Of a DNA stretch of 64,000 bases, positions 27,654 to 30,121 are shown in pieces. The position numbers were made by a program, and so were the translations under genes. Source of the DNA: Parasphaerochaeta coccoides DSM 17374 (GTDB lineage Bacteria > Spirochaetota > Spirochaetia > Sphaerochaetales > Sphaerochaetaceae). The stretch covers positions 1,116,001 through 1,180,000 of the forward strand of contig NC_015436.1 in the NCBI RefSeq assembly GCF_000208385.1. Reading direction: 5' to 3'. The notes under the pieces were generated by a model. It made no database searches. It was given only the letters and a program-made list of their open reading frames with translations, and was not told the origin of the DNA. Within the stretch, counting starts at the first letter, position 1, and the number at the start of each line of letters is the position of its first letter.

Positions 27654-27735
27654 GAAAGGAAAAGATACTATGAGAGAGAGAGAGAGAGAGAGAGAGAGAG
27701 AGAGAGAGAGAGAGAGAGAGAGAGAGAGAGACTAA
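27654..27735 (+). CDS. Leader frame of the phase-variable lipoprotein, closed at this tract length
   Basis: ATG 27670 has AAAGGA eight bases upstream. It runs into (GA)30, coding alternating Arg and Glu, and stops at TAA 27733 after 21 codons. The main frame starts 76 bases after this ATG, which is 1 modulo 3. One extra GA unit (+2) or loss of two units (-4) would join it to the downstream lipoprotein signal. The truncated paralogue at 62025 begins ATGAGAGAGAATGAA in frame with its signal peptide, which supports this ATG as the original start. The span given begins at the ribosome binding site. Confidence 0.6.
27672..27731 (+). repeat. GA dinucleotide microsatellite, 30 units
   Basis: An uninterrupted (GA)30 tract of 60 bases, directly after the AT of a start codon. 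No comparable tract exists elsewhere in the window. Such tracts change length by strand slippage during replication. The count may vary among cells and may be misjudged by short-read assembly. Confidence 0.97.
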
Positions 27736-27745
27736 ACTAAGCGTC

Positions 27746-30121
27746 ATGGTCTTCCTGACCATCCTGATGCTTCTTATCACCTTCATTTCATGCGACAACA
27801 AGCTGAATGTTTCACATACCAATGCAGTGCGCTTCTCTACGGAGATAGGACGCAAGGCCACAGCTAATTCCGAATGGCAAGCCGATGATGAAGTCGGCAT
27901 CTACATGGTAGCTCATGATGCCCTGGCAGCCACTGCCGCCTCAGAACGTGCAAACAAACTCTATACGGCTGACACAGCCTTCCAGACCTCTGGCTTCACT
28001 CCTGCTACCACTGCCGATACCTTGAAGTGGGATGACATTTCCAACTCTACCGCTACACACTTCGACTTCATCGCCTATTATCCTTACGTGTCTCCCATCG
28101 CTGATACCACGGCTCTATCCATAAACGTCTATCCCCTTGGTTCCGGGGAACAGGACACCGGAAAGGCTGACTTCCTGTGGGGACGCACCGACAATGTACA
28201 GAACAATACCTCGACGGTGCATCTGAAGCTTGACCATATGCTCTCCCGTCTGATTGTCAACATCTCTCCCAGCACGACCGTTGATGCTACGGCTATCAAT
28301 GATGCCACCGGTGGATTTACTGCTACGGTCACAGGCTTGAACACGCAGACCGCAATCAACCTGAATGACGGAACCTTGGATGCTGCCAGCGTCATTGACG
28401 CTATTGTCATGAAGGACATTTCCGACACCCTTACTCAATCTGAAAGGAATGAGGGCAAGAGGCGGTTCGAGGCAGTGCTGATACCTGTGGGCAACACTGA
28501 TGCTCTGGCTAACGTGAGCCTGGAGTTTACCCTGAGCGGTGGTGCTAAAGCTGGTACATACACATGGAAGCCAAGTACCACAGGTGCTGTAGCTGAGGGG
28601 GACAAGCACCTGATTCACTTTGACAAAGGCAAGCAGCATGTCTACAACATGACGCTGAACACGGATGACAATGAAGTCGCCGTTGCCGCCATCCAGATTG
28701 AGATAAAGGACTGGGACACCGGTGACGGGGTGAACGCGGCTGCAACCAAAGCATACAGCCTCACCTTTGGGGCCAACGAAGCCACGGGAGGCAGTGCTCC
28801 GGGACGGATGTATGCTCATGAGGGAAGCCTGGTCACACTGCCGGCTCCTGGAACATTGGAAAAGGATTTCTATTACTTCTACGGATGGAATACTCTGCCT
28901 AATGGCAACGGAACCCAATATGCCGCTGGTGATACATTCGTGGTTCCTGACCATGATGTGACACTGTATGCACGGTGGCTGGTGAAGGTCAAGGCAGTCT
29001 CCGCCGGAGGTTATCACACGATGATCCTGAAGGAGGACGACACGCTCTGGGGGACAGGACGGATCGACTATGATCAACTGGGTATCGGCATAATGGGTCC
29101 ACCGATAAGCACGCCCATGCGGGTCAAGGTTAGTATGGCCGACTTCATAACTGATGTCGCGGCTGTCTCCGCTGGAGAAAACCATACGATGATCCTGAAG
29201 AAGGACCTCACGCTCTGGGCGGCTGGACGCAACAATAATGGCCAACTGGGTGTCGGTGATAATAATCCCGACTCAATGAAGCCCGTGGTGCAGGTCAAGG
29301 CGAGTCCCGTCAAGAACGACTTCATGACTGATGTCAAGGAAGTCTCCGCCGGAGCCGCCCATACGATGATTTTGAAGGAGGACGACGCGCTCTGGGCGAC
29401 TGGAGCCAACTATTATGGTCAACTGGGTGACGGCACTATAATCGACAAAACCACCATTCCCGTGCAGGTCATGACTAATGTCGCGGCTGTCTCCGCCGGA
29501 CTGAATCACACGATGATTGTGAAGAAAGACGGCACGCTCTGGGCGACTGGACGCAACAATGAAGGTCAACTGGGTGACGGCACTACGACCCTCAGAGGCG
29601 CGCCCGTGCGGGTCAAGGATGATACCGATATTTCCGGGTTCATGACTGATGTCGCGGCGGTCTTCGCCGGATACGAACACACGATGATCCTGAAGACTGA
29701 CGGCACACTCTGGGCGACTGGAGGCAACAGTGCTGGCCAACTGGGTGACGGCACTTTGGGTACAGAGCAAAGCAAAAGCACGCCCGTGCAGGTCAAGGAT
29801 GATACCGATATTTCCGGGTTCATGACTGATGTCGCGGCTGTCTCCGCCGGATGGTTCCATACGATGATCCTTAAGAAGGACGGCACGCTCTGGGCGACTG
29901 GATCCAACAGTTCTGGTCAACTGGGTGACGGCACTACGACCACCAGAACTACTCCCAAACAGGTCATGACTGATGTCGCGGCTGTCTCCGTCGGATATTA
30001 CCATACGATAATCCTGAAGAAGGACGGCACGCTCTGGGCGGCTGGATGGAACGGAGATGGTCAACTGGGTATCGGCACAGCACTCACCACGACAAGCACG
30101 CCCGTGCAGGTAATTTTTTAG
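27746..30121 (+). CDS. Fimbrillin-like/InlB-repeat/RCC1-repeat surface lipoprotein, probably phase variable
   Basis: A 791-aa exported protein as read from ATG 27746. A signal segment ends in TFISC (Cys16). Residues ~20-330 resemble the Bacteroidetes fimbrillin (Mfa-like) domain: WQADDEVGIYM, a FIAYYPY segment, and FEAVLIPVG followed by a calyx-like C-terminal sheet. Residues ~335-411 form an InlB/Listeria-Bacteroides repeat (FYGWNTLPNGNGTQY, ending TLYARW). Residues ~415-791 hold seven RCC1-type repeats, each with xxHTMILKxDxTLWAxG and GQLGxG. ATG 27746 lacks a good ribosome binding site; the better start is ATG 27670, out of frame at (GA)30. A terminal seven-bladed propeller suggests binding to a host or partner molecule. 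A Bacteroidetes origin of the N-terminal domain is inferred. Confidence 0.85.
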   Translation: MVFLTILMLLITFISCDNKLNVSHTNAVRFSTEIGRKATANSEWQADDEVGIYMVAHDALAATAASERANKLYTADTAFQTSGFTPATTADTLKWDDISNSTATHFDFIAYYPYVSPIADTTALSINVYPLGSGEQDTGKADFLWGRTDNVQNNTSTVHLKLDHMLSRLIVNISPSTTVDATAINDATGGFTATVTGLNTQTAINLNDGTLDAASVIDAIVMKDISDTLTQSERNEGKRRFEAVLIPVGNTDALANVSLEFTLSGGAKAGTYTWKPSTTGAVAEGDKHLIHFDKGKQHVYNMTLNTDDNEVAVAAIQIEIKDWDTGDGVNAAATKAYSLTFGANEATGGSAPGRMYAHEGSLVTLPAPGTLEKDFYYFYGWNTLPNGNGTQYAAGDTFVVPDHDVTLYARWLVKVKAVSAGGYHTMILKEDDTLWGTGRIDYDQLGIGIMGPPISTPMRVKVSMADFITDVAAVSAGENHTMILKKDLTLWAAGRNNNGQLGVGDNNPDSMKPVVQVKASPVKNDFMTDVKEVSAGAAHTMILKEDDALWATGANYYGQLGDGTIIDKTTIPVQVMTNVAAVSAGLNHTMIVKKDGTLWATGRNNEGQLGDGTTTLRGAPVRVKDDTDISGFMTDVAAVFAGYEHTMILKTDGTLWATGGNSAGQLGDGTLGTEQSKSTPVQVKDDTDISGFMTDVAAVSAGWFHTMILKKDGTLWATGSNSSGQLGDGTTTTRTTPKQVMTDVAAVSVGYYHTIILKKDGTLWAAGWNGDGQLGIGTALTTTSTPVQVIF
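28984..30118 (+). repeat. Seven tandem RCC1-coding units
   Basis: Seven in-frame units of about 145-180 bases inside the lipoprotein gene. The DNA is highly alike around the HTMILK and TLWATG codons, with CTCTGGGCGACTGGA recurring. The three residues before HT differ in nearly every unit (GGY, GEN, GAA, GLN, GYE, GWF, GYY). Units 5 and 6 share VKDDTDISGFMTDVAAV, a sign of recent duplication or gene conversion. Confidence 0.9.

Follow-up and report, generated by a model that had tools for sequence, protein, structure and literature searches.

Multi-locus frame-shift switching of surface proteins is best known from vertebrate pathogens. In the opa genes of Neisseria, the repeat unit is 5 bp long and lies inside the signal-peptide region; it is not fused to the ATG. 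These genes form a dispersed family of paralogous surface proteins in which every member has its own frame-shifting repeat, and 11 copies per gonococcal strain, carrying 2-30 units of CTTCT, have been described (PMC5320596).

Shorter units are used in other systems. In Helicobacter pylori oipA, a 5' dinucleotide tract (CT within the signal-peptide codons) toggles the frame of an outer-membrane protein, and the same source describes the CT repeat count alone as a poor predictor of status (PMC10564699). The type III mod genes of Mycoplasma contain an AG tract in the coding region and conserved TAA stops in both wrong frames; tracts of 12 and 10 units were reported for two M. mycoides clones (PMC3498834). 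Haemophilus influenzae has contingency loci, i.e., genome-wide slippage switches on surface genes, most of which are built of tetranucleotides, and the dinucleotide (TA) repeat in the hif promoter region acts on transcription (PMC2651432). All four of these papers (PMC5320596, PMC10564699, PMC3498834 and PMC2651432) concern vertebrate pathogens.

Here, we describe GA tracts in the genome of Parasphaerochaeta coccoides, a non-spiral spirochaete of the termite hindgut (PMC12236494). The window, i.e., the whole stretch of 64,000 nucleotides that was analyzed, comprises bases 1116001-1180000 of the single 2,227,296-bp contig. The set resembles opa in its layout, whereas the unit is 2 bp, the loci number 24, and the products are spirochaete lipoproteins. 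Its repeat is GA rather than CTTCT and the domains found are Mfa_like_1, Flg_new and RCC1; the set works like opa and is not an opa member. It likewise resembles oipA in its mode of action, and its stops in both wrong frames are reminiscent of the mod genes, but it belongs to neither of these families. Unlike the oipA tract, the GA tract runs from the ATG itself, places Arg-Glu codons before the signal peptide and extends over 10-48 units, and unlike mod, which encodes a DNA methyltransferase, the genes specify probable surface proteins. A sequence-only reading of the locus had called dinucleotide tracts of this kind unusual. That statement was only partly correct, as dinucleotide tracts are known from the signal-peptide region of oipA (CT) and from mycoplasma mod (AG). 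What distinguishes the present system from the known ones is the fusion of the repeat to the start codon, the Arg-Glu leader, the number of loci and its probable host.

The GA tract and the lipoprotein gene in the window

The tract in the window is an unbroken (GA)30 (100% matches, TRF score 120) and the single match of a (GA)10 pattern, which had no match in 100 shuffles. Its first unit shares a G with the ATG. The features of the locus, in window coordinates, are as follows.

27508..27522, minus strand: left arm of a family-specific inverted 15-mer, ATACTTTCGGGTTAT
27555..27569, plus strand: right arm of the inverted 15-mer, ATACCTTTGGGTAAT
27655..27660, plus strand: Shine-Dalgarno-like AAAGGA, 9 nt before ATG 27670 (by eye; the energy given below is for the surrounding 17 bases)
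27670..27672, plus strand: ATG start codon, whose G is base 1 of the tract
27672..27731, plus strand: (GA)30 tract, coding for (Arg-Glu)n from ATG 27670
27732..27745, plus strand: type A linker with TAA 27733 and TAA 27738, one for each closed phase
27746..27793, plus strand: internal ATG and lipoprotein signal peptide (lipobox by eye)
27791..27793, plus strand: presumed lipid-acceptor Cys codon (by eye)
27746..30121, plus strand: lipoprotein ORF of 791 codons when counted from the internal ATG
27857..28714, plus strand: Mfa_like_1 fimbrillin-like domain (residues 38-323, E 5.6e-35)
28754..28972, plus strand: Listeria-Bacteroides repeat domain Flg_new (residues 337-409, E 8.6e-9)
29306..30106, plus strand: RCC1 repeats, a predicted beta-rich repeat domain (WD40_RLD, residues 521-787; RCC1 in seven stretches)

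With the 30 units assembled, the frame that begins at ATG 27670 has 21 codons and ends at TAA 27733, located 13 nt 5' of the internal ATG 27746 of the lipoprotein. One additional unit gives 817 open codons, and by arithmetic a loss of two units leads to the same phase; two additional units give 24 codons. The sequence-only reading had placed (GA)30 directly at ATG 27670 and had stated that a 21-codon frame would be reopened by one more or two fewer units, and its coordinates and phases were right. Its assignment of a good ribosome binding site to ATG 27670 and of no clear one to ATG 27746 also agrees with computed anti-Shine-Dalgarno energies: -6.4 kcal/mol for the 17 bases holding AAAGGA, and -2.9 kcal/mol at the internal ATG, which is close to the mean for ATGs in the window (-2.6). 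A scan of 27350-27760 for sigma-70 promoters found none; a terminator-like hairpin is located in the scanned region at 27396-27428.

The protein encoded by the window gene, which alone was scored here, matches Mfa_like_1 (PF13149) with 122 bits, the curated cut-off being 27. Judging from the Pfam families, the RCC1 region may form a propeller. An AlphaFold model, for which 25 of the 46 family members defined below were aligned as input, has a mean pLDDT of 66 and is confident over the RCC1 part alone (at least 82 in 10-residue blocks from residue 411 to residue 790). The lipoproteins of this family are probably surface-exposed. Three consecutive look-alike ORFs are found 3' of the lipoprotein gene, at window positions 30757-33981, and the first of them matches an ABC-transporter substrate-binding family.

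Twenty-four tract genes in one family

Searches for paralogs yielded 130 matches, of which 46 were kept, each beginning in the signal peptide: 42 belong to the main family and 4 to a related family at 25-31% identity. Pieces consisting of RCC1 only and fragments (e.g., 1249801-1249950 and 257349-259928) were left out.

The genome has exactly 24 GA tracts of at least 7 units, with 10 to 48 units each, and all 24 start inside the ATG of a paralogous main-family lipoprotein gene. Scanning for (GA)7 produced 267 matches in forward and 96 in reverse orientation, and these tracts account for all of them exactly; therefore, no GA tract with at least 7 units is located away from such a gene. Neither (AC)7 nor (AT)7 occurs in the genome (0 matches each), and a general excess of dinucleotide repeats was thus ruled out for these two motifs. 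A misassembly or an artefact of one locus was rejected because the same arrangement recurs at 24 loci with different neighbours. MutS1 is present in the genome; therefore, loss of the MutS1 gene is not the explanation of the tracts.

In all 24 genes, granted that the tract ATG is the start, the repeat lies in the 5' coding end and its unit length is not a multiple of 3. Exactly one phase is open in each gene (721-1003 codons), and the closed phases end after 10-36 codons. As assembled, six genes are open, nine need one more unit and nine need two more, which is close to the equal shares that free slippage should produce. The occurrence of a single open phase is by itself weak evidence, since it is nearly guaranteed wherever the downstream ORF is intact and the linker (7-25 nt) is open.

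As a proxy for instability within this genome, tract lengths were also compared between paralogs with similar flanks, for which 200 nt on the upstream side and 1000 nt on the downstream side were aligned. Some flanks are 92-94% identical, yet their tracts are 17 or 18 units apart (15 versus 32 and 30 versus 48 units); other close pairs differ little in length (15 versus 19 units at 94% flank identity and 17 versus 19 at 93%). The 24 tracts, spanning 10-48 units, are a natural series for gauging dinucleotide slippage.

A different repeat was observed in the related lipoprotein family, in which an octanucleotide array, CAGAGTCC, follows soon after an ATGTGCAGAG start. It has 13 units and an open frame at 1848519- (L269), and 21 units and a closed frame at 1997163- (L270). 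The member at 1571292- has no array and is open, and 2170953- is a further locus listed with this family. A switch based on the octanucleotide is less certain because a second in-frame ATG follows the array.

Tract-free paralogs and selection on closed genes

An in-frame start candidate (ATG or GTG) is present just 5' of the signal peptide in all 18 tract-free paralogs of the main family. At least 6 of the 18 read ATGAGAGAG, which equals (GA)4, or nearly so, and the tracts could have grown from ATGAGAGAG starts of this (GA)4 type. Such upstream candidates are not rare by chance, and taken alone they are weak evidence. From the matched start, the frame runs for 576-944 codons in 14 of these paralogs, for 324-331 in three and for 89 in one. 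The last of these, at window positions 62025-62324, is apparently a remnant, its frame ending 89 codons past the matched start. Frames are open in 6 of 24 genes with a tract versus 18 of 18 without (Fisher p 5e-7, the copies being related and not independent).

The 18 closed genes have intact ORFs, and stop codons are absent from the first 334 codons in all 24 tract genes. dN/dS is below 1 in 276 of 276 pairs of tract genes (median 0.39) and in 153 of 153 pairs in which both genes are closed (median 0.41), and it ranges from 0.21 to 0.49 in the 25 closest pairs. Dead copies are not expected to show such a pattern. The closed genes are thus kept by purifying selection, and gene conversion may lower dN/dS somewhat.

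Start codons and signal peptides

Anti-Shine-Dalgarno energies were computed on the 17 bases ending 3 nt before each ATG. The mean was -6.4 kcal/mol for the 24 tract ATGs, and -3.4 and -3.3 kcal/mol for the internal ATGs of 12 genes with type A and 12 genes with type B linkers, respectively. For comparison, the background at 1501 plus-strand ATGs of the window was -2.6, and the reference value at 36 ATG-started ORFs of at least 300 codons was -5.15. Shine-Dalgarno pairing is therefore mostly present at upstream ATGs and mostly absent at internal ones. The gene at 1453509+ has the opposite pattern (-3.3 upstream, -5.3 internal), and the internal ATG at 193974- reaches -5.4 versus -6.6 upstream.

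The two linker types differ in the signal peptide that an internal start would provide. Inspection by eye showed that in type A genes (12 genes, including the one in the window) the stretch from the internal ATG to the Cys lacks positively charged residues, and that the upstream frame supplies a Lys and thereby the positive charge of the signal peptide. In the 12 type B genes, the signal peptide specified from an internal ATGA(A/G)CAAAT contains Lys and Arg and looks normal; leaky expression in closed phases is therefore possible, i.e., these phases may still yield protein. Relative to the internal ATG, the two closed-phase stops of type A genes are located at -13 and -8 without exception (12 of 12). 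Of the 12 type B genes, 10 have them at -14 and +11, and the remaining two have stops at -23 and +1. This geometry would permit re-initiation.

Upstream 15-mer, gene orientation and module exchange

The inverted 15-mer, ATACYTTYGGGTAAT, had 71 matches in the genome at no more than 1 mismatch, compared with 2 for its reversed control. Sixty-six of these sites precede one of the 46 family starts by no more than 450 nt, although such zones make up 0.9% of the genome. A site precedes 39 of the 46 starts, including those of all 24 tract genes, 22 of which have at least two. The 15-mer is a candidate common operator or 5' regulatory element, and its presence upstream of so many members points to a layer of control superimposed on the random switch; its distribution is explained in part by the common ancestry of the 5' regions. 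The five sites elsewhere are at 2119054+, 1428787-, 1919092+, 2192324+ and 1166129+ (window 50129). The site at 2192324 precedes another lipoprotein-like ORF, with a signal peptide that begins MRETKLKPG.

dnaA is located at base 497. Sampled GC skew had positive values between 0.56 and 0.68 Mb; from 0.72 Mb onward it was negative for the most part, the samples at 0.97 and 1.30 Mb being exceptions. Going by the place of dnaA and this noisy sampled skew, all 24 tract genes and 41 of the 42 genes of the main family are oriented head-on to the replication fork, as are 15 of the 47 ORFs of at least 200 codons in the window. We regard the head-on bias of the family as suggestive, because the gene copies are related. 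In addition, the upstream regions fall into three types and the linkers into two, and five of the possible pairings are present, a sign of exchange between paralogs.

Proposed mechanism and alternative explanations

The reading that we prefer, at a probability of roughly 0.86, is that the tracts constitute a multi-locus translational phase-variation switch that operates via slipped-strand mispairing. Translation would start at ATG 27670, and mispairing in replication would alter the number of GA units. With a unit of 2 bp, the start would be joined to the lipoprotein frame at unit numbers of one residue class modulo 3, and the open phase would produce a lipoprotein with an Arg-Glu leader ahead of its signal peptide. 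The other two classes would stop close to the next in-frame ATG and give peptides of 10-36 residues; in 22 of 24 genes, the closed-phase stops are indeed located 8-14 nt before or 11 nt after that ATG. With the same device on 24 paralogs, the loci would switch independently, and each cell would thus display a random subset of the lipoproteins. Slippage would be expected to take place in living cells, with tract lengths hence varying from cell to cell, and the protein would presumably be lost in closed phases. The on/off switch suggested by the sequence-only reading is supported by the position of the tracts, which is the same in 24 of 24 paralogs, by the 6/9/9 distribution of phases, by closed frames that are intact and under purifying selection, and by the in-frame start candidates of all tract-free paralogs.

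Insects make no antibodies, and for this reason the selective cause proposed here is a different one, perhaps phage, protist predation or attachment. A set of 24 loci in a termite-gut spirochaete would allow one to ask what drives switching in the absence of adaptive immunity.

Several other explanations were weighed. The internal ATG could be the real start, in which case the GA tract would form a 5' leader rich in purines; it might modulate initiation, but its unit number would have no bearing on the frame. All 12 internal ATGs of type B encode normal-looking signal peptides with Lys and Arg, every one of the 12 type A genes retains its internal ATG, and Shine-Dalgarno pairing is fair at two of the internal ATGs of type B (-5.3 and -5.4). 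However, the mean pairing of internal ATGs is near background, the 12 type A signals lack a positive residue unless Lys is contributed by the upstream frame, and the start candidates of tract-free paralogs are found at the upstream position, several with ATGAGAGAG, which makes this explanation improbable. Still harder to accept, and in our view extremely improbable, is that the copies in a closed phase are dead and that the tracts arose by neutral expansion of the ATGAGAGAG start. The lack of stops in the first 334 codons of 24 of 24 genes argues against it, as do the dN/dS values, which stay below 1 in 276 of 276 pairs and lie at 0.21-0.49 in the closest 25 (values that gene conversion could lower somewhat), and the absence of (GA)7 tracts elsewhere in the genome. 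In its favor, a GA-rich start can slip without any selection, and several tract-free relatives have (GA)4 at the start. It is also very improbable that the homopurine tract has its main role in the DNA itself, where it would be a joint for recombination that swaps promoter modules between paralogs. The upstream types U1 and U3 each combine with both A and B linkers, and 270571- and 2041511+ are identical at 147 of 188 positions upstream and 969 of 996 downstream, but gene conversion of whole genes would give the same picture.

Two further possibilities extend the switch rather than replace it. A three-level switch, which refines the preferred reading and overlaps with it, would have the leader-bearing lipoprotein made in the open phase and re-initiation at lower, different rates in the two closed phases. 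We consider it unlikely, if the least so of the alternatives: stops are fixed at -13/-8 in 12 of 12 type A and at -14/+11 in 10 of 12 type B genes, but this constancy may be mere descent because the linkers are homologous, the stops of two type B genes are placed differently (-23 and +1), and type A products of re-initiation would have no charged n-region. The more inclusive idea of a coat switch in an insect commensal is somewhat more doubtful. It would place the 24 GA loci under one operator-like element, add the octanucleotide loci of the related lipoprotein family, have all of them read through start-codon-fused repeats, make the tract a promoter-exchange joint, and invoke selection by phage or protists, not antibodies. 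Since an ATG for re-initiation adjoins the stop of either closed phase, the output of every GA locus would come in three levels.

Occurrence in other genomes and in the literature

AT(GA)9 was found in this genome alone among 139 genomes of the family (0 of 138 others). The fimbrillin-like part, searched by itself, matched in 0 of 296 other genomes of the class at E 1e-5. The whole protein matched in 29 of 60 other genomes at E 0.001, and among the matches listed, RCC1 or Flg_new parts were covered and the fimbrillin-like part never was.

The literature searched, which did not extend to the genome paper (Abt et al. 2012), contained no earlier report of such a GA-tract lipoprotein set and no paper combining Sphaerochaeta, lipoprotein and phase variation. 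In a term search of PMC12236494, phase variation and microsatellite were absent.

A public scan for AT(GA)11, in which the genome of the window may be absent, gave at least 119 loci. Among the 119 listed, at least 20 have 150 or more codons in some phase and at least 10 have 300 or more; of the 99 other listed loci, at least 19 have less than 450 nt left after the tract. A wider bacterial theme of AT(GA)n was rejected, as many of the listed loci in Treponema MAGs and Prevotella look like dispersed non-coding repeats and add no members to the family. By eye, tracts in the Treponema MAGs (L105, L106, L113, L129 and L132) share similar flanking letters and have no long ORF, and the same was seen in Prevotella (e.g., L115 and L118-L120). 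A few tracts elsewhere precede a long ORF in one phase (L111, L100, L108 and L203). The first of these, in an Oscillospiraceae MAG, has an acyltransferase-like ORF, named from its translation, behind (GA)19.
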